This document shows, piece after piece, positions 11,701-58,392 of a stretch of 64,000 nucleotides of DNA (its first letter is position 1; every line of letters begins with the position of its first letter). Source of the DNA: Cloeon dipterum (lineage: Eukaryota; Arthropoda; Insecta; Ephemeroptera; Baetidae); NCBI RefSeq assembly GCF_949628265.1, contig NC_088786.1, positions 31,145,681-31,209,680 of the forward strand. Reading direction: 5' to 3'. Below the pieces are notes generated by a model. That model was not told the origin of the DNA, ran no database searches, and saw only the letters and a list, made by a program, of their open reading frames with translations. Made by a program: the position numbers and the translations under genes.

Positions 11701-14694
11701 CAATCTACAAAGAATAAAGTGGCTTATTTTTATTTGATCATTTATATTATTACTTGCTCAAAATATAAAATATTCATTTATATATTGTTTCATTCCAGGC
11801 TGTGTGGCAATCTCGCAAGGAGTTAGTGCGAGCGCCCTTGTTAGAAGCAAGACCAGACTTCCAAAGACTGCGGCAGCAACTGCGGCCCCCGTGGCTGAGG
11901 CGGCCGCTTTAATTCGCCAACAGCAGTCGCAGAAAACTGAACTGGAGCCTGAGGAAAGGGCGGACAACGTTGAAGAAATTATTTTAGAAGAGGAGGAAGA
12001 AAAGCCATCCGTGAATGCAACTACCAAATCGCCGCTGACTGGCAATCCGCAGGTGGACTACAAGTTTGATCCAAACTTGCCGAGAGAGTTGAATGGCTTC
12101 AATTTGAGTGACTATCCCTTCTTTAGTTCTGTGCCAGAAGATATTGAATTTAAATGTGATGGACTTCATGATGGATTTTACGCTAGTGTGAAACACCATT
12201 GCCAGGTGAGGTCTTCAAATATAAAATTAATAGCTAATTTGATATCAATGAATTTTTATGGCAGCTTTACCATCACTGTCTGTACGGACAACGCTACGAT
12301 TTCCTCTGCGCCAACTACACTGCTTTTGATCAAAAAACATTTATCTGCCACTTTGTGTCGGAGATAGACTGCGTGAACTCGCCAAAACATTTCAATAGGT
12401 TTGAAATGGAACATTTATTTTGTCAGTGAGATTTCATTTACTTATATAAAATATTTATAGGAACGAAGCGCTGTACAAACAAGATACCACGACAACTACT
12501 AGTACAACCACGACAACCACTCCTGCACCACCACCACGAGAAAGGGAAAGAGACAGGGATGGCGGCGGAAGAAGGGGAAACAGGCGCAGACCGCGTCCAA
12601 GAAGGCCCACTTATGATGACGACGATTACGAATACGACGATTATGGTTCCTATGATGTGCGTTATTCAATTTACAGAATTTACAATATATATTTTGTACT
12701 CATACAAATATTTATTACAGGATGAGCCATCTCGAAGAGAGAGAAATAGGAAGCGAAGGCCAAACCGGCAACGAGAAAAATATGACGACGATGACTTCGA
12801 AGATAAAGCGCCAAAGACAAAAAGCACAACTACGGAAGAACCGCCTTTGCCCTCAAAACCAAATAAATCGGTCTTTGAACAGCCCAGAAAAGCACCGCGC
12901 ATCAAGCCACCGGTGCCATTGAGTGAAAAGGAAAAGTACGCTCGACCTGGCGACGACGCCCCGTCCGAGAAACCACCTGCTAAGGCCACTGAAGAATATT
13001 ACGACGAAGACGAAGACCACGCTCCTAAGAAAACCAAGAGGCCACAGTCGCAGGACGAAGAAGAAGACTTCAGGAGAACTCCCCCTCTGGGAGCCAATGG
13101 GCGCCCTTTGAGGAGAAATCGACCTGCCAGACGCCGGCGTCCAAGCATGAGACCGTATTATGACGAAGACGATTATCGCGACGATTACAGGCCAATGAGA
13201 AAGCGCCCTTACAACAGAAGACCAGCCTATGATGATGAATACGAAGAGGATATGCCACCAAGAAGCAGGAAGCCCGCCAGGCCGAGGCACAGGGAATATG
13301 AGGACGACTATGATGTCGAGGAGGCGGAAAAGAGACCCTCTAAGAAGAGCACTACTACCACAACCACCACAACTACTACCACCACAACAACGCCCAAGCC
13401 AACAACAAATCGACCCAGGCCATCCACGACCACTTTAGCTTACGATGACGAGGAATACTATGAGGATGAGTTCTATGAAGACGACGAGCCTGTTGTCAAA
13501 AAGCCCCAGACAACCGATTCTGCACCTGAAGCTTCTTCTTCATCTACTACGACAACCTCAACCACCACCTTGCCAACGAGTAGACGCCCATTCGCCCCAA
13601 GAGTAAAGCCAGCTACGCAACCACCTGAGACATCGCTTAAGTTTACCCTTAAGAATCCGACCGAAGCTGAGAGTGAGCGCGAGTTTTCCATTGATGACTA
13701 TGTGAAAGCTGCAACTCGAGCACCATTTGTACCGTCCAGTAAACACCCTGCAAAACCAGCTACCACCTCATCCCCTACAACCACAACCACCACAGTTGCA
13801 CCAAAAACCAATGTGGTGAAAGAGAGGGTGCCTGTGGATGAATACGAAGATGATGTAAAGCCTCAAAGTCAATTTTCACCAAGAATCCCATCAAAGACAG
13901 TCGAACTCACTAGCTATGCTCCAATTCCTTCTAGAACATCCAACAGGGGATCAATTAAACAAGTTGCCACTTTCACATCGCCAGAAGCAATTTCCAAACC
14001 GTCTAGGTTCCCGGCTAGGAACAACAAGCCCGTTCCTGTTGACCAAGATGAAGAGGAAGAGTACCACACTATTAGAAAGCCCGAGATTAAAAACGAGCCC
14101 GCACAAAATTTCAAAGCGCCTGCGCCCCCTCCACGAACAAGACTGTCTACGACCTTCCTGCCAAGAGGGTTGAGTCCCGTTGGAGGCGCCAGAAACAACG
14201 TGAGGCCTGCACCGGCTTCTATTGTGACTTTGTATGATGACGAGGACGACGAGGCTTTCAACGACGCTTTGCACCCCACGGGCGCTGACAGCTCCGCTAG
14301 CACCGTAAGCTACGTGCCTCAGCAGAGACAGTCGACCAACCGGCTGTCCCCCATCAGAGGCTCGCAGCAGCAGCGAGTAGGACTCGAAACCAGAGGTGCT
14401 GCTCAGTCGGGCTTCTCGAGAGATTCAGAGTACGACGACGAGTCTGCTCCATCCGCCCCGTCAGCGCCAGCCGGCAGGACAAGCTCGCTGCAGTCAAGAC
14501 AGCAGTACCAGCAGGAGGCGCCGACGGGATTTGACGCGTTCGAAAGGCAGCCGACGTCCAGTGCCACCTCCAACACTTTCCGCTCCCAATCGAGACAGTC
14601 GGCGCCGAGAGGCAATAGTAGGCCTCTGGCGGCGGCTGCCTCCTCGACGCAGTATCAAGGCTGGAGCCGTGATTACTATTACCCCACGTACTGA
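8756..14694 (+). CDS. CPAP1-type chitin-binding (peritrophin-A) cuticular protein
   Basis: Five coding exons: 8756-8837, 11799-12205, 12265-12398, 12461-12656 and 12721-14694, total 930 aa. Exon 1 and the start of exon 2 form a signal-peptide-like hydrophobic run (STLILFAILFAGCVAIS). One type-2 chitin-binding domain spans about residues 147-199; its six cysteines are seen in KCDG, HHCQ, YHHC, FLC, FIC and IDC. A single such domain in a secreted protein is the mark of the CPAP1 family, which binds cuticle or tracheal chitin. The remaining roughly 700 residues are low-complexity: Thr-rich mucin-like runs, basic RRRP patches and repeated acidic-Tyr clusters (YDDED, YEDDE), so probably disordered and perhaps O-glycosylated. 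Intron 1 (2.96 kb) begins GC rather than GT (CAG|gcaagt), a standard GC-AG intron. The ATG was chosen because it lies 8 bases after an acceptor and heads the signal peptide; the ATG at 8790 is in another frame. Confidence 0.85.
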
Positions 14695-14950
14695 TCAATG
14701 TGATATCGACGATGTAAATAATTTTATTTCCCGTGCCTTTAATTAATATAACAGTTGATCAATCTAACAAGTGCTCGCGGGTTAAGGGACAAATAAGCAA
14801 AAGTGTCTGCCGCTTACGCTTTCTTCGCGAAAGTGTGCCCTCATTTCGTGTGTATATAGCTTTATATCGAGTTGTTTTTGGCCTGATTCGTGAAATGATA
14901 CCAGTTTTTGGATGATTGTGTTTTTGATATGAGTTGGTGGTTATGTCTTT

Positions 14951-14956
14951 AATAAA
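14951..14956 (+). terminator. Poly(A) signal of the CPAP1-like gene
   Basis: AATAAA lies about 260 bases after the stop codon; a second AATAAA follows near 14992. The 3' end faces that of the convergent Osiris-like gene, leaving only about 440 bases between the two stop codons. Confidence 0.55.
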
Positions 14957-15135
14957 AAATTGTGACCCTCGAAAAGTACTGTACTATTTTAATAAAGCAG
15001 AAATTATTTAAAAGGATCGGCCCCAATGTTTAACACAAAATGCAACCAGAAAATTTCTTTTGATCTTTAATATCAGTCAGTTTCACAATAAATACTCAGC
15101 ATACAAATAAATTAATAAAATCTGAATAAAAAAAA

Positions 15136-16899
15136 TTAACGACGCCCAGCAGCGGCCAAAGTTTTGTACCTATTGATAAGGGCAGCCTTTGCGCTAAGGT
15201 GTTGCTTCTGCTCTTCATAAGCCCTGTCGTGAGCATCGTAGCCACCACTGTACTCTTCCCAAGGCGAAGACGACTCGGGGTAATCGTGGCCGGCGTTGAC
15301 AGTCACGTGAGGCCGAGGGTGCAGGTGGACAACCTTGATGATGGGCTGCAGCGGCCTGTTCTTGGTTTTGAACTCGACGAAGAGTCGCAGGGCAGCAATC
15401 AGCAATCCCAACAAGGTTAATCCGAGAGCTTTGAGTTGGACGATGGTGGAAATGGCGCTAAATATGGTCATAATTTTTGACATTTTAAAGGTGATGAGTC
15501 CAAGCAGGTGGCCCAGTCCATGGTGGCCGTGGCCGCCCAAGCCAATTCTCTTTCTAGCTTCTAAAATTAAAATATTGACAGTCGAGTTATATTAAAAAAA
15601 AACCAAAAACACACCTTCAAAGCGCCTGCCAGCATCTTCCACCTTATTGATTCCAGTCTGGAGAAGGGCACGTTGCTCTTCTTCTGAGTCTGCTCCGAGA
15701 AATGCAGACACGCCGTCGTAAATCATCTCGGCGATTATTTCCAGAGAGCCAGTCCAAGATGAGCTGGGCTCCTTTCCAAAGCTGGACAAAAGCGCAGAGG
15801 CCTCCTTCAGGTCGTAGTCCTCGTCAGTGTCGGGCTCCTCTTGGTCTTCGTGATTTTCCTCTTCCTCGCCTGTTTTGCTCTGTGGTGTTTCATCCTTTTC
15901 CTGCTAGTAACATATATAAATTATTTACAGGTCAATGCATCATGCTTGTAAGAGAAAATGTAATGAAACATGAGCTCGTGTTTCGGTCATTAATTATTGA
16001 GTTATGAAAAACCATTATTTTGTGATGCATGGCGAAGTGCGTGACCGCAGTGGCATAAATGAGCAAGTATGCCACTGTGCGAGCACGGGAGCTACGCAGG
16101 TTGCCTAAATTTTATAATAAATTGTACATTTTTGCGGCTTTTGATTTTCTCCTCAAGCTTTCTTTTCTCAAATAAATCAGCATTTTAAAATTTTCTCTTT
16201 ATCTAATTCAATGAATAGAATATTTACTAAAACATATTTCCGCTTATTCATTTCATCATTATTCTTCCATGAAGCGTTTCAAGAAATTAAATTCATGCCA
16301 ACATAGTTAACAAAAATATTATACGAACAGAAAATGTAAATGGGAAGATTTGAATGAAATATGTTTACGTATTTTAAAATGTAATGTAAATTTTTTAAAA
16401 CTTTGACATGCTTATAATTAGAAATTGGATTTGTTTCATTAATTTTGAAATGCAAAAAATAATACAAATAAATCATGAGCCACGAAATAAAAATTGTATC
16501 TTTCAACTCGATTTATTCTTCTCCGCCAAAAACCAAATGTAAATTTATATTTAGATTATTGACAAACTGTGCAACACGGAAAATAAATGATTTTGAGCAA
16601 AAAAGCCAAATTTTTACCTGGGCAACAGGTCCACTGTGGACAACGTTGGTGCCGATGTTGAGCCACTCCCTGATTGCTCTGAACGTCTTGACCTGAACGC
16701 AGGGCCAGTCTGCAATCAGCATGCACTCGAGCACGGTTTTCGGCGCCAGGTACTCGCCCTCTTCGAAATCATCGTCGTCCAACTCGACCCTGGCCTCCGG
16801 ACCGTCCTTGGGTGGCTTCTTGTGCGCTGCGGTCTTGTCGGCGGCGGAGGCGGCGGCCAGCAGGAGGACGAAGAGGACGAGTGTCTTCACTGGACCCAT
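15136..16899 (-). CDS. Osiris-like (DUF1676) protein
   Basis: Three exons on the minus strand: 16618-16899, 15615-15900 and 15136-15560, total 330 aa. It opens with a clear signal peptide (MGPVKTLVLFVLLLAAASA). A two-cysteine segment follows (LECMLIADWPCVQVKTF), resembling the N-terminal Cys pair of Osiris proteins, then an acidic stretch. A long hydrophobic region comes next (about residues 208-250, around IVQLKALGLTLLGLLIAAL). The His/Tyr-rich tail ends in an AYEEQK...LSAK segment resembling the C-terminal Ala/Tyr motif of Osiris proteins. Osiris proteins are insect endomembrane or secretory proteins linked to cuticle and tracheal morphogenesis. In-frame upstream ATGs exist (16983 and 16935), but the signal peptide begins at 16899. 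Assignment is by overall architecture; a clean DUF1676 match was not testable. Confidence 0.65.
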
Positions 16900-23370: not shown

Positions 23371-26300
23371 ATGTTTTTGTCTTTCTTCTACGCTGCGGCG
23401 ACCTGGGTCCAATCTTCAAGGCTAGCAGAACTTCACTCCAGAATTTTGCAAATCACCGCACAGAATGGAAGTCTCGTCCTTTACAAAGTCCCTGAGGTCA
23501 TTCACACGGATTTTGAAAGTGAGCTGGTGTTCTCAGAATAAGTAAAAGTTTATCATGAATTTCTGAAATAATTCAATTAGTCAATCCTAAATTTTCTATC
23601 AATAAAATCAGGTCATGACCCAATATTAAAAAAATCAAATTTTCAGACAGAGGCATAGATGCCCAGGTTCCAAGTGTGACGTCAAAATTTTGTGAAAACA
23701 ACGATTGCGCCAAACTTGGTGATCTACTATGGAGCTACAACTCAAAGCGACTTTGCTCCGTGTTTCCAAAAGTATCAAGATAACAATATTTTAATTGATG
23801 TGGAGAGTTAAAACACAAAATTTTGCTAGCAATCCATCTGTGCCAATCGATGGATAAAATTTTCTACCGATCAAGGGGAGTTCCCAATCAACATCGCCTC
23901 AGAAGATTTGGTGTTGGAGGAAGATCGTTTGCATGTAATGATCGAAGCCGACTACCAGTTCACAGAGGGCCGTCACTGCTTCCAAGCGGAGTTTGTAAAG
24001 GTTTGTTTGTTTTTTAATATATTATTTAATTATTGTAATTTGTCCTAATTGGCATGCAGCTTGAAAGGTTTGGGTTGCTTCATGCTTGGAAAGCGGGTGA
24101 ATATTTCGGGATCCTCCTCGAAACTGACGCTAACCACCTCACTCGACTTGGACTGAGCTTCTTGCAAAATATTCTTAGTCTTGATGACGGCATGGAAGTT
24201 TTAAGGATTCAAAGTGAGTTGACTGTCCGAATCTTTACTCTCTGCTTAGCTCCTAACCCATGCAGATTCCTCATTCTTCTATTAACAATTAAAATAGGAA
24301 CGCTGCAAAAAATTAATTGATATGCACCTAGTTATTAAAAATAAATAATATTTTATCATGTGTTTTTAGCTGTTGACGTGATTGGCAAACCATGTCCTAT
24401 GCTAAACGCTGATTGCATCCCTGCTCCTCGCTCGCTTCCCATGGGAAGCGAAACCAGCGTTAAAAATGATGAGTGCGATACTCAGTTTGCTGTGGAATCA
24501 ATGGCGGGTATGTCCTATTTTGTTTTGCAGCGCATCAATTTTTTCATTTAAATCTCTCACCAGGACTACTGATGTCACCAATTCAGTGGAAGTCCCATGT
24601 TGAGCTTCTGCAGGGATTCAGCAGAGCCGTCAATGATGCTGACGGGTCAGTTGGACTGATGCTCAGTTCTGACCGCGTTCCAAATCTTGTCCCGATTGCT
24701 GCTGACCCGCCCACGCCTCCCTGCTCACCAAGAAATGGCTCAGTTCACAGTGAAGCCCCCAAAATCATGTATGCTCAAGTTTCACAATTTTCTGGTGGTA
24801 GATAAAATGGTTGTTGATAATTTATTTCATACTATAATAGATAAATCACTCGGGAATGATTATTCCATATCAAAATTAATATCAAAGTTGATTTTATTTT
24901 TTTATGCCTTTGAATTTCAACTTACTGCGGTTTTACTTGTTTTCAGTGAGTTGGATAAAGTAAATGTGGATCAAAGCAGCAACGTTCCTCTGCCTCAAGC
25001 AGAGATCAACGACAACAAGAGCGTAATTAGTGGAATCACATCTCACTCCGAAAGTTTCTACTCATGTGCCAGTCAAGACATGGGAAAGCTTACAGAGAGT
25101 TTGGAGCAGCTCAACAAGGCACTGTCCTCTATCACAGATGAGAACAACGAAGATGAAGCGGCTGAAACTAAAGCTGAACCGGCTGAATCTGAAGCTGAAG
25201 CGGCTGAAACCAAAGACGTTGTCCCTTTGCCGCCATTAGAATCAAATTTTTTGAGTAAGTCAACTAAAATTTGAGCATCTGGGTTTTAATATTCACGTCC
25301 TTAGCTGCAGGCAAAGGTCAGCCTTTGACTAAACCCAGTTTCAAAGGTTCCGCTGCAAGTCTGCCCTCAGCAACCCCAAAATCGCGCTCACCCACCACAC
25401 CAATTAAATGCCCCAACGTGCTGATTTATTGTGACAATACTGAGGTTAACGAAAGCATTAAATCATTGCTGAGGCAAACAATTAAAAGATATAGGTGAGT
25501 AACAACAATTATCTCAGTGTGTAGATGATGAATTAAATTTTCTTGAAAGAAGTTAAAGTCTTTAAACGGCTTGAATGAGTTAAATTAAATTTCCATGCGA
25601 AACCTTATAGGTATTTTAACAGTTTTGCTGACATTTTTATTTGATGTTAATATTATTAAGTTAAACTCTTGAACCAGTCGAGTGTCAGTTCATAAATATC
25701 ATCTTCACGCTTTTCTAGGTACACTGTGTACAATGTGAATGCTGAGCAGATGAAAAGCAATGCTTGGCAGAAGAGCACTGCCCTAGTTGTAGTCCATGGA
25801 AACATTCCTGACAATTTAGCTCCTACTCTTATTTCTTACTTAGTAACAGGTACAGTGATCATGTTTCTGTAACGTTGTGATGATTAAAATATCTTGTTGC
25901 AGGAGGGAAGGTTTTGAGCATTGCCTCAGATCTTATTTTTGTCCCATTCCCTGACTTGCAAAAGTGTGAACTGCAAGAAAATGAATTAGCGACTTTTTCA
26001 TATCAAAAGTGGAAGCAGATTCGCCTGCTAAATAACATCTTCTCAAAGTATGCTCAAAAGTAATAATCCTTAGTGCGTAAACTTAAGTATTGATTTAGTT
26101 CACCAGCCCTGCCATCAAGTCTAGAGATAAACGACAGTTCGGGATATTCACATAAGTTGAATATTAATGTGTTGAGTAAGGACGACATTACTAACTCACC
26201 AAGTTTGGTTTTGGCTACCATGGTAGGATCTGGAGGGAAAATGCTGCTCTCGCAGGTATTATATGATAATGTTAAGCTAAATTTGCATCACCTGGTTGAA

Positions 26301-28220
26301 CAAAAATTTTCAGGTCCATTTGGAGGTTGATGCTCAGATGCACCAAAATTCTAATCCTGCTCTTTACGCGCCTTTGAAGGAGCACGACTCTGCAAGGCTA
26401 GAGATCGCCAAAGAAATTCTCTCTGACCAGCTGGGGCTTGATTGCACCAAAGACTCAAAGGAAGACACGTTCACTGCGGCCTATTTTTTGGGACGACACG
26501 AGGTGCTGATTGTGCTCCGTGCATATTTTGTTCTCTCTCTGATTTTCATTTGCATCTCTATCGTTCTGCTTATTGTGGCGGTCTCAAGCTTGGCTACCTA
26601 CTTGTTTCTTGCACAGCTGCTTTACCTTCTTTTCTAGCATGCAATTATTTTCTGTTCATAGTGAACCTTTCATTTATTAAAGAGCACATTTATTTCTCTT
26701 GATCCTTTACTTCCTCAAGTTTTTAAATCCACTTTCAACCCGCAGTTAAAAATGGAAATGCTGAATAATCTGAAACCAAAGATGGATGCTGCTGGAGGTT
26801 TTCTGCAAATGGATAATTTGAAGATTGAATTTGTCGGCAAAGGCGCAAACGCCGGTGCAGCAACTTCTAAAATTCTGCCATGCTATCTGCATACTTGCCC
26901 ACCACATTTCAACACAGTGGAATATTATGATGTGAGATGTGGTCTCAAACGTGAACAAATTATTAAACCTGGTGTACATTTAGAACTTGCAAACTGAACA
27001 TCTGGGGCGGTTACTCATTTATTCAGACGTGTTGACATCTTCGGTAGACGTATTAGCAGGCACACCTCTTTACCATGGGCTGGCGGCTGTTACAAGGGTT
27101 CAACTTGCAGGAAAAGGTACACAATACTATTGAAAAATTCAATCAGAGTCCATTGGTCACATCAGAAAATGATACCTTTGAGGAAAGTCTATAGAAGAAT
27201 CAGGAAGCAATTAATCAAATGATTTAAAAAAATTGTTTTAAATAATGCAGTAAACCCCCTCATCTTCATATTATGCCTTTTATAATTGGCTGTTCCTACT
27301 AGTTTTATATGTTAAAAGTGGCTAGTTTTTATGTAAATCTGATTGAACCAACTTGGCTTTTGCTATCCAAAAAACATATCTTCAAAGCTGTGTCCTTTTA
27401 GAAGGTTTTTCAAAGTGAACTTAAGGAAAATATCAAAACTCTCTCTATCTTTTAAGGTCGAAGCAACAATGAGTGGCTCAGCCCTGAAGGATGTGCGATG
27501 TTTTCCCTGCAGCTTCATTTGCCAGCCAAATCCATTCTTGGCCAGAAAATATCTCTCATTCAACACATTGCTGCATTAGCGGTTTGTGTAGCCATTAGAG
27601 AAGCTCCAGGATTTGATGTGAGACTTTGTGCTGATCACAGCAAGTCATTTCAAAGATAATTGATTGCAGGATATTGACCTGAGACTTAAGTGGCCAAACG
27701 ATATTTATGCTGGGGATTACGCGAAAATGGGCGGCTTGGTGGCCAACTCGACGTTCGTGGGAGACCGAGTGATCTGCAACATTGGTCTGGGATTCAATCT
27801 GACCAACTCGGAGCCTACGACCTGCCTGCAGGACCTGCTCCTGGAACTGAAAGCCAAGGCCGCGCCCATGTCCCTTGAAAAGTACTTGGCGCTCACCTTC
27901 AACAAGCTGGAGTCGCTGATCGAATTAGCCCAAAGCTCAGAGGAAGGGCTTGACGAAATAATGACGTTTTATCATGCTTACTGGTTGCACAGGTGAATTT
28001 GACCTATCTTTCTTAAATAAAAATACTCATAGGATGATTCAGTGGCGCCGAGGTGACTGTGCGTTCTGAAGACGGAAAAGAGCAGAGGGTGACGGTCCAA
28101 GGGCTAGATCCATACGGATACCTGCTAGTGAGAGGACACGATGGGAACCAGTTCTCAGTTCAACCTGACGGCAACTCTTTCGACATGCTGCAAGGTCTGA
28201 TCAAGCCCAAAGATTGGTGA
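23371..28220 (+). CDS. Hcs: Holocarboxylase synthetase (biotin-protein ligase)
   Basis: Seventeen coding exons join in frame to 1013 aa: 23371-23518, 23647-23771, 23830-24000, 24060-24213, 24370-24507, 24564-24768, 24947-25254, 25305-25494, 25719-25849, 25903-26047, 26099-26255, 26314-26502, 26746-26931, 26984-27116, 27457-27617, 27670-27992 and 28043-28220. The enzyme makes biotinyl-AMP and attaches biotin to carboxylases. The catalytic domain starts near residue 750: LGRLLIYSDVLTSS, the AGKGRSNNEWLSP nucleotide-binding loop (about 790-802) and KWPNDIY (about 854-860). The C-terminal cap ends VQPDGNSFDML, close to the end of human HLCS. The middle part (CPNVLIYCDN, GGKVLSIASDL) matches the conserved animal N-terminal region. 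An acidic Glu/Ala repeat lies in the seventh exon. The acceptor before 25305 is followed six bases later by a second usable AG, so a two-residue splice variant is possible. Confidence 0.93.
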
Positions 28221-33209: not shown

Positions 33210-36200
33210 TCACCGATCCCTGCAGGCAACAGCAGCCACCAGGGCGGCCCCTCGCCCACTGCCATCCTCGGACAGCATGAGGTCAAACTGAAATGATATT
33301 TTACAAATGTTTAGAAATAAAGTAGCAAAAAAAATTATTAAATTATATTCAAATATTTTGCTTAAATTACCTTGATGGAGGGGTCAATGAGCTCAGAGAT
33401 TTTGTCCATCATAAGGTGGTGGAAATGCGGGTGGAAGCGATAAACGGAGCCGTCCACGGCCACGGTTACGTCCTTCTCGCCCATTCGGTCGAGCAGGCAG
33501 GCGACGCCGGCCGAGGTCAAGTGGGCAGCACGGCGAGAAACCAGCTCGCAGACTGTCCTTACGTCGGCCATGTCTGTCTCGGTGGCCACGCCACCCAAAC
33601 CCAACTCCTCAAGCACCTGCAAGCAACTGTGGTACTCGCCCTGCTTATCACTGAAACAACAAAATTGCAATTTTAGACAAATAAAAATCATAAAAGACAA
33701 TCCGCAAATTTTTTGTATCAAAATAGTTTGTTTAGGTAGGTACCAGGGAAGGTGGATATGCAAATTTTTTTATTTAAAACAAAGTTGATAATTTTTAAAC
33801 GATATTAGTTGAAATGGGCAGGGACTTGTTGTAAATTTAATATTTTGACAATTAATATGGTTCTCACCTCTCGATTTCTGAGACGTATTTAGTGTAAAAC
33901 CTTCCCTTTTCTTGGATCAAGTCTGACGACTTGCCGCCAAAGATGAGACCCTCTCGGATCAGTTTCACCAGGACTAGACGAACGAGCTCGCCCATGTACA
34001 TGCCAGAGATCATCTTCTCAAAACTGAAATTTCGAAATTATTATTTATTTCACGAAGGCGATGGGAGCAACAGGCACTCACAGTTGTTTGCCTGGATTGA
34101 TGGACTCTCTGTCAATGGTGCGGTCGTACTCTGTGCGGATATTTTCCAGCACATCGTTGTCGCCGAATGCGCCCCATTCAGTGTTGATGATGACCTGGTC
34201 AGGAACGCCTTCGGTCGGCCCGTCCCACAGCTGCACGTTCTCCAACTTCTCAACGTAGCAGGCGTTACTTCCGGTGCCTTAAGAAATTGCAGTTTCAATT
34301 AGCAAGTGCCCCATTGGCTCGAAATTGGCGTAAAAATGCAGGGTAAGGGAATATTATACTGCGAGTTATATATATTCATGCAGCTCTCATGCAAATGTTA
34401 CTAAAAGCGATTAATTTAACCAGAGCGCGTTAGTTGTTAAAATAATAATAAAATAAAACTATAAAATATTTGTCAAGTGTTAATATATGTATCTTTGGTA
34501 ATAATTGTAATGGGAGTGGGGGATGCGGAACATACCAACAATGACACCAACTCTGCAGTTTGGCTTGACCCAAGCACTGGACATAAGAGTGCCCGTGGTG
34601 TCGTTTAGCACGGCACACACAGTAATTGCAATATCCTACAACAGCGTGGATCGTAAGAAAAAAGAAATAAAAAACATGACAAAAGTTAAAAAGAAGTGAG
34701 TTGGAAAAGATAATAACAATATCGCGAGGAATTGAAATAAAAAGAGTACATATAAAACAGAAAGTAAAATAATCAGTAAAAGATCAGAGAGAATAAGATT
34801 GAAATCACTTTAGATAAACGGGACGGCGACGAGACTGCTGTTGACGTGTCAAATAGGGAATTTAAATGCATATAGATTTGAAGAGGAAGATTTACGAGCA
34901 GGTATGCAGTTTATCAGAAATAATATACACAAATAATGCGAAGATATCCTGGCCTAGCAAATACCGCAAAGTGTATGCGCAGAATATATACACAGCAGAG
35001 AAAATCGATGCTCCTTACTCCGCACAAATAGTGTGGAAAAGAGGTTTTCACTTAAAATCCTATTTATTATAACCAAAGTGATGTTTCAATGTGATGATGA
35101 ATTAACTGCAAGTGTAGTTGAATGGTTATTTTCGTGTGTAATAAAAACACCTTTTCCGCACTTGTCTGCTGCACATTCAGATGCTGACACTTAAATGCAG
35201 AGCATGCTTCTTATTTGTGGAAAGTAATCGATTTTTTTACCTCGAAAGCGTATTAAATTTTTTACTTATGGTTTCAACCAATTGAAGCTATAAATCGACT
35301 AATTTCCTAATCCTAATATTAAACAAGTCAAATTTATAGTGCAGCTTCTCCATCTGGGTTGCTAAAATAAAATAATAAACATGTAGACCCGAAACCAATA
35401 GTAGCCATGCAGGGAGCTAGCAGTATAAAAATAATCAACATGAAACGCTGCTGGCTAAAAAGTATTAAAAGCGCAGGCAAGACTAAAGAAATCTCTCGCC
35501 TAGAAGGCCACCGGCCTTACCAACTATCAGGCCGACTCGACAGTTGTGTTTTTTGTAGGCGCACGACATAAGGGTGCCTGTTGTGTCGTTCAAGACTGCC
35601 ATCACGTCGATTTGCACGTCCTGAATTCAGAGACAAAAACACGCGCGCAAATTTTAATTCTGGACTGCGAATCTGCTCTCTGCTTCACAAGACTAACTAT
35701 AAGCTGTCCAAAGTTTGATAGTGCATTCAAAAGTTTTCAGGAAGGTTTCGAAAGTAAAATAGAAAAAAAAATGTGGAAAGACACTCACCCCTCGCCTCGC
35801 GATAGCTTCCTTGAGCAATTTGACGACGTCATTGTTCTCAACACCCTCGCAATTGAACCCTTTGGTCCAGGTGGACAGGCGGGCCTTGGTCAGACCCTCC
35901 TGCACGCAGGGGAAGCTGAAGGTGAAGCCCAGGGGCAGTTTCTCTTTGTACACATCGTACTCCTTCATGAAGTCGGCCAAGCAATCAGCAATGTGGTCAA
36001 ACAGCTACAAAATGCAAGTATTTAGCATTAAAATGTCAATGCGGCAAAATGGATTTTTTTAAATACCCCGGTGCCAGGTCCAGTCATGATGTCCTTTGGT
36101 ACCGCGTAGATTTTAGAGTCCATGTGGAAATGCGCACCTTCGGCCAGGGTGATGAGCAGCACGCGGAAATTTGTGCCTCCCAAGTCCAGAGCCAAGAATT

Positions 36201-39200
36201 TGCCACGCTCTAAAAATCGGTTAAATTTAGGTTTTTAATCATGCTCGCAAGATGTTACGCGCATATGTGATCGTTAAGTTGGCTCTGCAATGCTGACACT
36301 ATTTCTCTTGGTACTAAGTTTATTTTTAGTAGAGTATATTTTTTTAAAAAGAGTTGCGTTCAATGTGATGATGTACGCATTTCAGGGAAGTAATTTTAGA
36401 ACTGCTAATTTGGGAGAAATCGATCAAGCAAAATCTCTCCAGCAGTTGGTTCAGAATTAAATATTGATTTGCGTCATCTTTTCCTCGTTTAATTTTAATG
36501 AGCAACCTTGAGACGCACCGCCAATCGGATTCCTGTAAGCTACTCGCAATTTCCTATATTGATTATATATATATATATGTATATGTATATAAAACAAACC
36601 TTTGCTGTTGGGTAGGTCCTGAACATAGGTGATGAAGCACTTGACAGACGAAGTGTCATGCGTGTCCTTGCCGAGACCCCGTTCGATCTCGTGGTTGAGC
36701 TTGTTCTTGATCTCGAGAGCCTGGTCGGTGCTCAGCACCAAGTCCTGCAAACGCTCTCTAACCTGCAAAAACCAGAGAACATTGCATGAGTCAAAGAAGA
36801 GCTTAAAAGCAAGAAGCCGCGTTTGTCATCTTTGCACGCCTACTTGACCCCTGAATAAACGAGTTTTTTTGTGTCCTGGACGCAGTCGCCCAAATCTGAC
36901 GCCAGTGCGAAATTTTGTAAGGCACCCGCATGGCCTCCACTTTTTTCAGAAGAAGAGTTACTAAACAAATTTGAGTGAGTGTTTTTATCAGAAAAGATAG
37001 CGGCATAAAATTGTGAGTTGTGAAAAAAATTTAAATTTGTACGTTAGAACGTTTTTTCGGTAAAAAAAAATTAAATCCGTATTTCCGCAAATCAGAGAAT
37101 TTTCAATTTAACGAGCAAATTAATGTTTCGTGACAGAGTTCTCAGATCATGATCGCAGTCTTCCGCACTGTTATGATCGCCATTGAGAGATTTCACCTTG
37201 AAATTATTTTAATCAGTTCAATGGCACTGCAGGCGGCGAGCAGACAAAGTAGGAATGAAGTTTTCACTTTCACTTCCCGATTGCAAACAAAATGCAAAAT
37301 CATACACATATATGTTTAAACTGTTGCACATTGCAAGATAAAATAAACCTACAGCGTGACACGAGAAAAGAGAATAAGGAAAAACCGACAGATATATTGA
37401 GTTTCCTTGTCGCTCAATGCGTTGCCAAGCGAGTCTTGCTGTAATTTATAAAAGTCCAATTAAGCCAATTAAGGATGATATCAAAACTAACTAGAAACTT
37501 TTGTTTTTTAAATATTTATTTAAAAAATTGTTATGCTGTTGTACGTGCAAGCGGGAATTTTTGGCCCACTTCCACTTCCGTCACGCCGCTCGCTTGCGAG
37601 TGCAGGCGCGTGATTTTGTGCGGGTTTGACAGACAGCACGCAGACACTACTAAAATAATCAGACGTAGGAGCGAAATACGAATACGCTGTTACTCTCACG
37701 TGCAGCGCGAGAAGCGAAGGGGAGACGGGACACAAGATCAGCCGCTCCTGCATATCGCCAGAAGCGCGTTGCGATATAACAGCCGGGAGAGCAATTTTAG
37801 AAAATTATGTGGGTCATAAACGCATATAGAGGTTATTTTGTGTTTCTCCGTGGCTTTACGTGATGAAGCACACATCCAAGATTTGGCTTTAGTACAAAAA
37901 TCACAATTGCGAAAATTTAAAAAAAATATACTACGCATTTGTTCGTAGATTTAAACTATTAAATAATGATTTTTATTCAAAACGTCGAGGCTGTGAGTTT
38001 GCGTCTCATGAAAACCAATGAAGTGGCGAGTAAACACTTAGAGATAATTTTCCCTTTTTTTGCGCTCGCACGGGGTCAAGGCTGTCACACGAGACTGACT
38101 GCTTGGCTCAATTATTTTGCAGTCAACCACAGATATAATGGGACGCAAGGATGTGTCGAAACGCCGCTGCTCATTGAGCGGCAGGAAAAGCACCGACTCG
38201 ACTTTCGTCAGCTGCCACATATTGAACGGCATTTATTGGGAATCGAAGAGGCGAGCGGTCGCCCGAGGCGCAATGTTTTGTCCGCAGTTCAACGAGAAGC
38301 TGCTGCTGTTTTCTAGCAGGCGCCGCGTTTTATCGCATTATATTATTTAATTAATGTATACGCGGTGGCAGCGGCCGAAGAAGTACACGTGACTGCAGTC
38401 ACATATACTTTGCTCTTTCTTTCACTCCATTGTACGCGAGTGAAAAATTCGAGAACGAATCAAATGCGGAAGAAAGAATAAGTAAATGAGCTCAGTGCTG
38501 AAGCGGAAGTTGATTTTAATTGCTTTATTGTTTTGAACTTGAAATTGTTAAGCGGCATTGATTCTGGATTAAATTGTTATTTAATAAGTTAGAATAAAAG
38601 CTGAATTGAATTACAGGTAGAGTGTCTTGTGGATTTCCCCAAATAAAAAGATTGACTGCTCGTTTTTATCATCAGCCAAATTATCAACTGAAGATTGTTT
38701 GTATTGATTCATTTCATGAAAATATATACAGACACAATTAATTTTCGATGGCCGTGAGCGTTATGTAACCAAACTTGGTAGAGTTCGAAGTTCGTCTAGG
38801 CTCTCTCGTAAATAAAAGAAATTAAATACACACGCACACAGTATAGTGAGAAACAGGATAGGAAAACCGGATCTCAAAAGAGAGTCGTGTGTTTTGTTAT
38901 CAGCAGAGAGCGAGCCGCGAGTCAAGCAAGAGGGTTTGAAATGCGCGCTCCGATCGCGTTCACCGGGTGAGCACCGTTCACTCCACACCCCCCAAAAAGC
39001 AGCCAGTCGATATTTCGTGTGTCCTTTATGCCCTTTAGAAGAGGGATGATCGCATTCAACCCCTAAATGACCGCGGGCGCCGCGCACCACCGCAATTACG
39101 CAGTAAACCCAAATTTATTTTGATGCGAATCAAAAATTAGGGCATTTTATCGCGATTTTGTAGTGCCGGCGTAGGTGGCGAACGCGACGGGGGTGGTTTT

Positions 39201-47491: not shown

Positions 47492-50400
47492 TTAAAGAAG
47501 ATCGGCTGGGTTTCCTGGAACTCCTGTCACTTCCCAAATTGTAGCTGCCAATCTTCTGGTGTGCTCCAACACACAGGAGGAGGTGGCCAGACCAAGATGC
47601 ACGCAAAACAGCTCGTAACATTGCACTTTTCCAGGAGAGGTTTTCGGAAAACATACACTGATCAGGTTCCTAAAATTGCAGCGAATATTTAAAAATAAAT
47701 CTATTGTTGAATGTTTGGGTTCTTACTGATAAAAATCTCCGCACATAATACCAGGCTGAGGCATGTTCTTCAGCTGAGCAGTTGGAAAAACCTTTGGTCT
47801 GATTGGAGAACCCTGATGAAAGAAACTTAACATTTGTATCAATTTTGCAAATACGGAGGCTTACCGAGGAGCCCTCAAACCAAAGGAAATAGGCGTAGTT
47901 GAATGTCGTGTCCTTCCACATAAGAGAAATGTGACCATCCACCAAATGCGCCCTGCTGAAGTCAACCATGGACCAGATCTGAAATCAAATTCAAATTCCT
48001 CTCAATCAAGTTCAGGGTTTTCTGTAACTGTCAAGATTGTCTCAATGAATATACAAAGAGACGTAGAAACAATAGGTCATGCAAAATATTTTTAGTTTCT
48101 AGGTTTCAATTTATATTAGATAGAATTAAATGCAAACAAATCAACAGTTTACTAATTGAAAAAGTGACAGCATGCGTATTGATTTTAATTTATATTTAAT
48201 AAATAAATGATCCAGCCAAGCATAACTATTTATTCCTATTTAAAATGTACTAAATATGCCCGACTTTAATATAAATGATATATATACACATTAACGATGG
48301 AATAAATACCAAGGTTATTTTACTGTCATTTGTATAAAAATGTAATTATAAATAGCCAGGTCATAAGGAAGGAAAGCGTTTGAATTATTATTGAGCATTG
48401 TTTTCCTATATTATCATTAAAAGCCTAACTATTAATGTCAAGAACCCAGAATTTCGTCGTCAAAATCACTGATTCAGCAAGTATTTTATAAGTTTTAAAA
48501 GGAAATTAAAAGAGCTTCTCGTTTATTTTATATATCATTGAACTAAAGTGGAAAAAATAAATGAGTATAAACTTAGCTGATTCTCATAAGTTTAAGCGTG
48601 CATTAATACTAAATATTGATAAAAGGTTTAATCAAAATTAAAGATAATGAAGTGCGATAAAACATAAAAAATAAATTAGGATTTAGCAGGCTCCAAAATA
48701 AAGAACAGATAAGTCTTCATTACAATCTGAGCACTGAAACGTATTATGTTCAAAATTTGGCATGGACCCAATTGAATAAATTGCATGCACCCATAATCAG
48801 CAAAAATTTATAAATTTTATGATGGCGTAAATTTATTGTTAACAGTTATTTCCATTCATCAACCTTACTCTGGTCAAAAAAAATGTTTATGTTGGTTAAA
48901 AGAATGCTTGTGAGAACTAATAAAATTAAGCTTTTTTGATTTGTTTGAAAATTATGGATATTTTAAATTTTCTATCATGCCTTGAAATGGTTTAAATGCA
49001 TTCCCAAAACATAAGCGACCACTGTTTTTAATTTGGTTGCAAATCTGTCTCGCAGTTCTAACCTTTCGTTTTGTGAGCGACATGGTTTCCTCAGAGCTAA
49101 AGTCGAGACTGGGGGTTGTGACACGGTGATTTGTGCGATCGATGTACAAAAAGTGCACCAGGCCAGGGAACTCCTCGAGGTACTTGTTAATGGACAGTGT
49201 CGCTCTTGATCCGAGCGTGAAGTTGCGCATCGCCTTCACTTTTAGGAATCCAATGAAGTCGGCCAAGCGAGCCCGCACAGCCTTGGCCACCGACCTGGCT
49301 GGATCCGCAGAGTGGGTCACTGCCGCTTGGTCCAGGCAAACAAGCCGGAAAATTTCACAAAGCAACTCCATGAATTTGAGGCCACACGACTCCACCCTCA
49401 GGACGCAATCGAGATCATGTGATTTGATCAACTCTGTGTAATTTCTGAAAGTTGCTGCGTTTTAATATCATTTTCTTGGTCATGATTTGCGTGGTTACTT
49501 TTTAAGAGCATCCCAGTTGGCAGTGAGCTGTCTATGGCACCGCTCGTACTCTGGTCCGAGAGAGCGGATCTTCTTCAGTCCTTCAAGAATTTTCTTCACA
49601 CCAGAGTCTAAATGTTCTGTTGTGGCTTTCACTCCATTCATGTCCTTCTGTAGCTGCAGAGACTGAAGGGAATTCAAAGCATGGCAGGCCTCCCACAGAC
49701 CCGCTGATATGTTGCTGCTTCCAGTCTAAGAAAAAAACAAAATTCTTGTTTTTTAGTGGTTAAGACATTTCTAGAAAAAGTCTGCGATGGGCAAAAGAAG
49801 GGCTCAAAAGTGTTTGATGCGGAATTTACAACTGATTTATAATATAAAAAAATATTCTTTGGGATTAATAAAATTGTGTACCTCTAGAACAAGCACTAAA
49901 GCGACTTTTTCAGAAATTGGAGCAATGTGGACGACATGTGGATGGAAGCCAGGTGGAGATCCCATAAGAAGTGCCAAATTGCTGCCGGAGAGAGGCATAT
50001 CTGTGCCCACTTTGCTTTCAGACTGCTCTGTAAGCAGGGGCTTTGCCGAGTTTCTGCGGGTGCCAGTTGGGCTGTTCGAAGGACTGAAAAACTCGTCCTC
50101 CTCTTCGTTGGTCATGCTCGACAATGTGACAAGCTTCTTCAACTCAGCTGCCTTTGATTTATCCAGGACTGGCTGGTACACTTCAGTCAGCAGAGTGAGG
50201 AATAAAATGTCAGCAGGAGTCAGGTCTTGGGCTCCTCGGCTGGGAAATATTGGGTAGAAATTCAGAAATCAGAAATTTAAGGCAGATGCGAAGAGTCCTA
50301 AAATCTATTTAATCTAAGGTGGGCAATCCTGTGCAACACTCCCCAAAAAATCAATGTTCCATGTTAAAAAAAAATTAAAATAAGGATTTTTGCAATCAGA

Positions 50401-54848: not shown

Positions 54849-54955
54849 AATAGAAAAAATTGTAGATATATTGTTGGTCCATTTTTTTTCAAAGCACAAG
54901 TGTTGTATTGTTTACGCAGCTCTAATTGTTGCACTCAAAATTAAGTTCAAGAAAA

Positions 54956-57900
54956 ATGGAGACCGAGTCTGATCATGGCTCCCGGCCCGACGAAGCTGGC
55001 GATGAGTTTGGTCCTGCTCAGGAAGCGATGCTCGAAGGGCGGAAGTCGCAGGTGGCGTCGATGGGGCGGCGCAAGTCGTCGTTGAGCAGCCGCCGACGCT
55101 CGATGGCCGCCGAGGAGATGCGCTTGGAGGAGGAAGAAGTGAGTCGGCAGATGAAGGGCATCAACATGATGGAGGACTCGTTCAAGAACAAGTGGGTCAA
55201 GGCGCTGGAGACGCACAAGGAGGACTTCAGGGTGCGGATGGAGAAGGAGAGGCTGGAGCGGGAGGAGATGGAGAGGAACAAGTCGCTGGTGCAGGAGGTG
55301 CGGGCGCACCGCGACCAGAAGAAGGTGATGAGCGTGCAGGCAAACATAGAGGAGAAGAAGGGCCAGGTGGAGGAGTTCAAGAAGCGCAGGGTCACCATCG
55401 TCGAGAAGGCGAAGAAGGAGGAGATGATCGAGTGCTTGAACAAGAGGAAGTGGATCATCATGATGCGCGCATTGAGGAACCTGCAGAAGACCAAGAAGCA
55501 GGAGCTGGAAGAGGAGAGGAAGCGCGAGTTCAGCATGCAAATGGAGAGACACAACTCCATCAAAGAAAGGTATTATTGCTGTTTTCTCTGGTGTCTTACG
55601 ATGTTGCGATTTGATTAGTGGTGAATTTATTGAATTTGAACACTATATTCATCCTATATTCACCCAGGGTTCGCCAATTTTCCAATGCGCAAAAATGCAT
55701 CACTGGTTTTTTGCGCAAAAAACCGGCCGGAAAAACCCACCAGTTTTGGGTTTTTCCGCATTTTTTCCGAATTTTACCCGAAAATAGTCAATTTCTGCTC
55801 CAAAAGAGTCTGAAATATCGGAAAATTACGTTGATGGAGTTAAAATTTCCAGTCTCTTGGTGGAACTAGTGGCTCTAATACTGATTTCAATGATTTTGAA
55901 AAATTCCTATTTTTGGTCATCCATCATGAGAATATTTTATTTTCCTTAAGAATGCTTGTGTGTCGGAAAAATGCGCAAAATTGCAGAAAAACCCGCAAAA
56001 AAAGTTTTTCACAATGCAGTGGGTTTTTCCGGAAAATTCGGGTTTTTGCGAACCCTGCATACACCGGGGGACAATTTTTAGTACGACGGCACGTGTGCGA
56101 GTTATGGAGCTCTAAAGGAATTAAATCCTTATAAGGAATTTGACGTGGGGAAATTCTTTGAAATTGAATTATGAAACCAGTTTTCGTCTCAATCATGATG
56201 ATTTTTTAATGGCAGACTCCAACCGATCGATGGGTAATTTTTACCTTCCATATATAGTCCCTATTTTTTAGACTTTGTCCAGAAAAATCCCTAATAGCTC
56301 GTTAAGTGCTAAAGATTATTGCTCCAAATTTTCGGAGCCGATGAACAGATATCGTAGCTCCATTTTCTTAAGTAGGAGAAAAATTCTGAAATTTTTAAAT
56401 AGACTTAATTTGAAATAATTATTTTTTGAATAAAAAATCCATAGTTAGTTTTGGATCAGTGCAAGAAATATAATGATTTCAGGTCCTTGAAACCCTCCCT
56501 CTCCCACAATTTTCCACAGTCATGCAGAGTCTTTGAGTTGACTGCGGGCGTCTTAATTATTGTTTAAATATAATTATCAGAAAAACCAAACAATGCAGTT
56601 AGAGCCATTAAGTTCCAAAACTGTTAAATAACAATAAAAAACTAAGCATATTGTTGTCAGACCTCACTGCTTTAAAAAAATGAACTAAACCATTCCATGA
56701 GGTGCTCCTTAAATTGAAGTTTCGGGAAAATTTTCAAATTTCTTCAGGACAAAATTAATTTTTTGAGCAGGCAAGATTTTACTGCATCCAATATTGCAAG
56801 GGCATATTAAAATATTAAGTGAAATTTGTCTTCAGGATGGACCAGCGGAGGGAGGAGCAACGCAAGTCGCAGGTCGAGTGGGTGCAAAAGCTGTCGACCA
56901 TCAAGGAGCAAAAAAAGGTGGAAAAGAAGCGTCGCAAGAAGCGGCAGCATCCACCGACTGAGTCTGAGAACCGCTTCAAGCGGATGCAGCGCGAGGCGAA
57001 GATGCGTGCCAGACGCGAGGAGATGCGCAAGAAGAAGCTGGAGCAGGAGCTACTCGCGGAGAAGCGCAAACGCTACGTCCGGGAGCTGGCGCGCAGGGCC
57101 GAGGTGGACGCGCGCCTCGACTACCTGCGCAAAAGCCAGGAGCTGAACGACTTCAGGCAGGCGGTCGCCATGGACAGGGTGAGGCGCGAGTTCGAGGCCA
57201 AGGTGGCGGTCCAGAAGGCTGAAAAGCAGTTCTCAGAGAAGATGGTCACGATGCTCAAGGAGAACGACAAGTACATGAAAAAATTGAGGGAAAAAGCTGC
57301 AAGGTAAAAACGATTTATTACAAATCATTCAGGCCATGAGTTATATTTGAGTCTTTTTTCAAATAATTTTTAACGTTATTAATTGTTATAGAGGGCAAAG
57401 ATTTTTTGGTTTTTGTTTGCCCTAATTCAAATTTGCTATGTCGTGGATTTTTTTAAGTTTTTTAGCTATTGGAATTTTCAATTTTATCTAAGAAAATCAA
57501 TATACCTCCGAAGAAACCCCATCATCTGCAAATTTAATTATTTTCCCTGGTTTTAAAACTTAATAATAAGAACTTTTTGTTATGATGAGAAATACTATTA
57601 AAATACACGACACCATCCAGAAATCTTGTCTGAAAAAATTTAAAAATCCCAAACCTTCACATAAAATTAATATTAAACATTCAGGTTTCTGTTTCCAATT
57701 GTACCAAGAGTTCCGCAATTTTTTAAAATTTTAAATGATCAAATTCATGATTATGAAAAATCTGTGACGATTGCAGGGAAAAGAAAAAGAAGGCAAGCGA
57801 GCTGAAGGTGCAGCTAGAAGCGACCAGGCGGCTGGAGGTGGCCGAGAGGGTCGAGCAGCACCAAAAACTGGTGCACCGCCTGGCGGAGGAAAAAGGTCGG

Positions 57901-58392
57901 CAGCTGGCCGACGAGGAAGTCAAGTTCCTGAAGGAACAGGAGGAGCAGAAGGAGTACAACAGGTGGGTGTCCGAGCAGCACCACCGCAAGGCGCAGATCC
58001 TTCGCAAGCAGGCGCGCATCAGGGAGTGTCTGCGGCGGCAGGCGGCCAGGGAGCAGCAGCAGCTGAAGAAGATGAAGGAGCTGGACCGCCGGGCGACCAC
58101 CCTGAAGAACATCGAGTTCCTCACTGTGAACAAGAAGGAGCCGCTGAGCGAGACCGTGAGCACCGAGGCGGGCGAGGAGGTGCGGCGCCAGGTCATCCGC
58201 CTTCAGAGGCAGCACCACCGGCTGCTCAGGCAGCAGGCCCTGCAGAGGAAGGCGGAACAGGGTGCCGAAGTGAGGAAGGAGTTGGCCAAGGAAAGGGACA
58301 AGTACTCAGAGGAGAGGGGGGCAGAGTTGCAGGAGAAGAAGGAGCGCAAGGCGCTGGTCACACGCCCGGCGCAGAAAATAGCTTGGCGCTGA
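54956..58392 (+). CDS. Highly charged coiled-coil protein, function unknown
   Basis: Three exons: 54956-55569, 56836-57303 and 57777-58392, total 565 aa. All junctions are phase 2 (AG|G). After a short acidic start (METESDHGS) and a Ser/Arg patch (RRKSSLSSRRRS), almost the whole protein is Glu/Lys/Arg/Gln-rich helix without Pro, predicted as long coiled coil (for example RMEKERLEREEMERNKSLVQ and KMKELDRRATTLKNIEF). The pattern resembles trichoplein- or CCDC-type cytoskeletal and ciliary proteins, but no family motif was recognised, so no function is assigned. Coding exons are much more GC-rich than the introns. The ATG has good context (AAAAATGG), and no upstream in-frame ATG exists before the nearest stop. 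Confidence 0.8.
55665..56057. mobile_element. Short non-autonomous DNA transposon (hAT-like MITE)
   Basis: A 393-base element in intron 1 of the coiled-coil gene. It starts CAGGGTTCGC and ends with the exact inverse GCGAACCCTG; the inversion continues imperfectly inward (AATTTTCC and GGAAAAACCC-like blocks). Flanking 8-mers TATTCACC and CATACACC match at 6 of 8 positions, as expected of a decayed 8-bp target duplication. CAGGG ends and 8-bp duplications are typical of hAT elements. There is no transposase frame, so it is non-autonomous. Confidence 0.7.

Follow-up and report, generated by a model that had tools for sequence, protein, structure and literature searches.

The minus strand of the window (the whole 64-kb stretch of Cloeon dipterum DNA considered here) carries a hexokinase gene at positions 33210-36762, as recognized from the joined located exons and from a Pfam match. 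The gene includes two similar exons, designated D1 and D2. The path through D1 comprises eight located coding exons, and D2 is the ninth located exon (Table 1). All borders between located exons carry AG/GT, and the joined exons form one open frame; the exon carrying the start codon was looked for and not located. The stretch that separates D1 from D2 is the longest gap among neighbouring located exons and contains no further exon copy.

Table 1. Located features of the hexokinase gene, listed in the direction of transcription (window positions).
Feature	Positions	Strand	Details
First located coding exon	36600..36762	-	163 nt; Pfam Hexokinase_1 match begins here
Coding exon	36067..36209	-	143 nt
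Coding exon, upstream neighbour of the pair	35789..36004	-	216 nt; whole codon at end
D1, first alternative exon	35521..35620	-	33 residues and the first base of a Gly codon
Stretch between D1 and D2	34636..35520	-	885 nt
D2, second alternative exon	34536..34635	-	33 residues and the first base of a Gly codon
Coding exon, downstream neighbour of the pair	34082..34277	-	196 nt
Coding exon	33868..34023	-	156 nt
Coding exon	33371..33650	-	280 nt
Last coding exon	33210..33287	-	stop TGA at 33210-33212

Whichever of the two exons is used, the 443-residue product exceeds the gathering scores of both Pfam hexokinase models (Hexokinase_1, 238.9 bits with D1 versus 234.1 bits with D2; Hexokinase_2, 279.6 bits versus 279.8 bits). 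When a 389-residue portion of the D1 isoform was compared with solved structures, 48 distinct sequences matched, hexokinase 2 (2nzt) best, and the predicted protein presumably resembles fly hexokinase. Scans for Rfam families, tRNAs, and tandem repeats gave no match inside the gene. Parts of the protein were also compared with bacterial/archaeal and viral contigs, and with phage by tblastn, and neither a relative nor a second genome carrying the pair emerged; the queries of these scans measured 72, 271, 72, 53, and 271 residues, the collections are described as bacteria, archaea, and viruses, and a single-protein scan reaches close relatives only.

Other open frames were noted elsewhere in the window. 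On the minus strand, the frame at 30238-30591 matches the leucine-rich repeat model LRR_9 (E=7.8e-29) and, we assume, resembles the spliceosomal protein U2A', and two frames within 48952-50268 match longin domains 2 and 3 of the FUZ/MON1/HPS1 family, above cut-off. On the plus strand, the frame at 26281-26637 is without a Pfam match and has a weak NCBIfam prenyltransferase match (20.2 versus a cut-off of 289 bits), while that at 27664-27996 has a BPL_LplA_LipB match just under cut-off (20.9 versus 21 bits); the plus-strand frames across 26281-27996 are presumably pieces of a biotin-protein ligase gene. Long, highly charged frames lie at 54926-58392 (plus strand), where 54926-55618 and 56819-57307 gave no Pfam match and these two together with 57757-58392 gave no NCBIfam match. 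A low-complexity frame of 754 residues, rich in T, P, R, and acidic residues and without an NCBIfam match, occupies 12430-14694 (plus strand) in the block 12001-16000, the GC content of which (0.472) is the maximum of the window.

A preliminary description of this DNA had reported two 100-base exons of equal phase that encode the same hexokinase segment with 24 of 33 residues identical, both retaining the catalytic Asp in NDTTGT. All of these statements were reproduced: the coordinates are exact, the AG/GT borders are canonical, both exons are entered in phase 0 and left in phase 1, and the motif is found in D1 and D2 alike. The aspartate of NDT, which we take to be the catalytic residue, aligns with position 211 of yeast PII and position 657 of hexokinase 1. 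Searching the window by tblastn with either exon recovered the other copy (E=2.9e-12) and revealed no third one, the next match having E=0.11 (D1) or 0.56 (D2). At the DNA level, 62 of 100 bases are identical. The flanking introns share 20% identity over 20 nt upstream and 45% over 20 nt downstream, with 60% in the first 10 nt downstream, where the splice site is included. Since the introns are unlike beyond the splice sites, the likeness is limited to the exon, as would be expected for an old duplication under selection. Nothing was found to favour an assembly artefact, or the joining of two haplotypes or gene copies, and copies that are 62% identical in DNA and unlike in their flanks, in a gene where every other located exon is present as a single copy within the window, make such an origin extremely improbable.

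Differences between D1 and D2 number 9, 6, and 23 at codon positions 1, 2, and 3, respectively. That is, 23/33 third positions differ as compared with 15/66 first and second positions (Fisher P=8.9e-6, positions 1+2 versus 3), and 16 of the 24 shared residues are encoded by unlike codons. The third-position differences indicate that the duplication is old. Dating it by an amino-acid clock was abandoned, since D2 seems to have evolved at the higher rate and a segment of 33 residues is too short. Neutral change was simulated from a D1 start without constraint until the same count of third-position differences had been reached. In these crude simulations (equal base rates, D1 held fixed), none of 5000 runs retained more than 14 of 33 residues (mean identity 3.5/33, maximum 14) and 78% gained a stop codon, leaving a wide gap to the observed 24/33. 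Together, the codon-position pattern and the simulations argue that D2 is not a dead copy, and both exons are, on this evidence, under coding constraint.

The two copies are not equivalent. In comparisons with four mammalian-type hexokinase halves, D1 is the closer copy each time (20 versus 15, 17 versus 15, 16 versus 13, and 19 versus 16 of 33 residues); the matches made by one copy only favour D1 at small counts (5 versus 0, 3 versus 1, 3 versus 0, and 4 versus 1). Since D1 is nearer to all four halves, D2 is probably the faster-changing copy. The GC content at third codon positions (GC3) is 0.485 (16/33) in D2 and 0.667 in D1, against a range of 0.647-0.774 for the eight other located exons including D1; the last coding exon has 0.654. 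D2 may thus be the minor or rarer exon, and the asymmetry fits an isoform that is either specialised or somewhat relaxed. The greater nearness of D1 to other hexokinases and the lower GC3 of D2 also speak for D2 as a decaying, unused duplicate in a gene that makes its enzyme from D1 alone, and D2 might have fallen out of use very recently. However, a dead copy at saturated third positions would be expected to match D1 at 3.5 of 33 residues, whereas D2 keeps 24, contains no stop, has both splice sites intact, and leaves the catalytic segment unchanged, so that decay is an improbable account of this exon.

Inclusion of both exons, or of neither, had been said to break the frame, and an early stop is indeed encountered in either case. 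The first stop lies 619 nt (both exons) or 422 nt (neither) ahead of the last located junction, and the D1-only and D2-only isoforms remain open across the located exons. Because these stops are far upstream of the last junction, mRNAs with double inclusion or skipping should be targets of decay. That a transcript with both exons stops so early would also suit D2 as a poison exon, with a main role in lowering hexokinase mRNA through the frame shift and decay caused by double inclusion. Such a role would not need hexokinase-like in-frame sequence, yet D2 is held at 24/33 with near-saturated third positions, and as the main role of the exon it is quite improbable; a poison effect may exist as an addition.

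Mutually exclusive splicing, as the preliminary description had proposed, is the best reading of a tandem homologous pair with equal length and phase, the frame logic outlined above, and coding constraint on both members, and the probability that D1 and D2 form a true pair of mutually exclusive exons that modulates the enzyme is put at roughly 0.85. Under this reading, a single ancestral hexokinase exon would have been duplicated in tandem to give D1 and D2, and the spliceosome would join the exon ending at 35789 to either of them and then onward to 34277; double inclusion or skipping would shift the frame, and the resulting mRNAs would be removed by nonsense-mediated decay. We infer from the sequence that both exons are spliced in vivo and, likewise, any kinetic difference between their products.

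Three devices that could enforce exclusion were considered. First, RNA pairing between introns (docker/selector) is without clear support against shuffled sequence: for the three intron pairs, 37, 7, and 8 of 60 shuffles were as stable, and seven weak inverted repeats occur in 34278-36066, figures that derive from one sequence, in which short conserved elements could escape notice. Second, a U12/U2 mismatch is not indicated, as the donors GTAAGG and GTATGT look by eye like ordinary U2 donors. Third, the 885-nt spacing between D1 and D2 is too long for a steric block. Protein splicing factors would be the likeliest choosers of the exon.

Comparison with glucokinase identifies the segment that is exchanged. 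Matches to glucokinase chains cover 54 residues on both sides, and from their equal length the exon start corresponds to glucokinase residue 194. Human glucokinase exon 6 is 100 nt long and is a single exon in the human gene. Its first base is c.580, which opens codon 194, while c.580-1 ends intron 5 (PMC7716520), and the excerpted variant list places c.579 in exon 5 and Met197, Cys213, Tyr214, and Val226 in exon 6 (PMC11382428). What was duplicated is thus an exon with the same 5' border as in human glucokinase, and by alignment the counterpart of D1 and D2 is human glucokinase exon 6, with which they have the border at codon 194 and the protein segment in common.

In glucokinase numbering, which follows in part the residue names in PMC11382428 (Val203, Thr206, Cys213, Val226), D1 and D2 differ before the catalytic segment at 195 (V/I), 196 (Q/A), 198 (D/T), and 200 (M/C), and after it at 213 (C/S), 215 (Y/W), 216 (K/V), 218 (H/P), and 224 (L/V). 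Residues 201-212, including the catalytic aspartate, are identical. The earlier claim that the differences cluster around the active-site loop and just after it did not hold up: the 12-residue invariant run, which includes the catalytic segment, has P=0.077, and four differences within some six residues have P=0.44, so that clustering beyond chance is unsupported. Two of the D2 residues occur in other hexokinases, Ser 213 and Pro 218 in yeast hexokinase PII (1ig8) and Pro 218 also in the C-terminal half of both hexokinase 1 and hexokinase 2. Both changes are thus tolerated in hexokinases, and D2 has the look of a functional segment of the enzyme. Both isoforms, which would keep the catalytic segment, are most likely active hexokinases.

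The allosteric site of human glucokinase is described as comprising Arg63, Met210, Tyr214, Tyr215, Val452, Val455, and Ala456, with Met210 and Tyr214 in helix 5 (excerpts of PMC4370448). The variable position 215 is a published contact of allosteric activators (PMC4370448); Ala occupies position 214 in both exons, and the Tyr214 contact is consequently missing from either isoform. The excerpted variant list also includes Cys213Arg as a disease variant, and Met197Ile and Tyr214Cys under the label HH, read here as hyperinsulinaemic hypoglycaemia (PMC11382428). Deletion of Cys213 alters glucokinase kinetics (34.85 versus 7.18 for wild type in one column of tabulated values) and gives an activity index of 0.01 in the part of the report drawn on here (PMC12785307). 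Altered sugar affinity, inhibition, or redox sensitivity between the isoforms, as suggested in the preliminary description, is possible. A change in affinity, in either direction, is plausible.

By the glucokinase comparison, the predicted isoforms would have the catalytic NDTTGT in common and differ in strand and helix-and-loop regions, which would probably fine-tune affinity, stability, or regulation per tissue or stage. A more specific and rather unlikely possibility is that the pair constitutes an ancient arthropod switch, in which one hexokinase gene would provide two kinetic settings through exchange of the helix and loop, chosen by tissue or stage, with one isoform an ordinary high-affinity hexokinase and the other shifted in glucose affinity or cooperativity. 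The exchanged helix and loop bear, in human glucokinase, the activator contacts Met210, Tyr214, and Tyr215 (PMC4370448, in excerpt) and the activating mutations Met197Ile and Tyr214Cys (PMC11382428, in excerpt). Mutually exclusive exons are themselves a known kind of arrangement; the hexokinase gene and the place within it are what is unexpected.

Glycolysis begins with hexokinase, whose isoform diversity is generally attributed to gene copies or, in vertebrates, to gene copies and N-termini. In pyruvate kinase (PKM1/PKM2), a glycolytic enzyme with another fold than hexokinase, regulation is altered by a pair of mutually exclusive exons. PKM is named in a survey of human mutually exclusive exons, the main text of which contains 0 occurrences of "hexokinase" (PMC5740500). 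The nearest parallel in working is human ketohexokinase, in which, as in the D1/D2 pair, one of two adjacent duplicated exons is chosen; there the exons are of 135 bp, and the resulting KHK-A and KHK-C are both active and differ in fructose affinity and thermostability (PMC2651755, in excerpt). In contrast to D1 and D2, which are 100 nt long, the 135-bp exons are divisible by three; ketohexokinase is moreover a pfkB-family kinase outside the hexokinase family, and its swapped segment of 44 residues extends from helix 2 as far as the dimer-interface strands, according to the same excerpt. The excerpted WebScipio description of mutually exclusive exon clusters lists similar length, the same reading frame, homology, and compatible splice sites (PMC3228551), all of which are features of the D1/D2 pair. 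Literature searches on hexokinase splicing and exon duplication, and on mutually exclusive exons in arthropod glycolysis, returned no hexokinase pair among the matches listed, as far as titles and the starts of abstracts tell; annotation databases of insect hexokinase isoforms may already list such a pair. The earlier proposal was that splicing at the active site would be a distinct route to isoform diversity. For sugar kinases generally, exchange of a protein part by splicing is not new, given ketohexokinase (PMC2651755); for the hexokinase family, no precedent was found in the material covered.

If D1 and D2 are used as proposed, the natural exon swap would offer a test, already set up by nature, of how regions near the catalytic aspartate set affinity and regulation, in a segment for which the counterpart exon of human glucokinase bears listed disease variants (PMC11382428, in excerpt). 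It would also show that splicing can retune an enzyme of core metabolism in an arthropod, as it does ketohexokinase in mammals.
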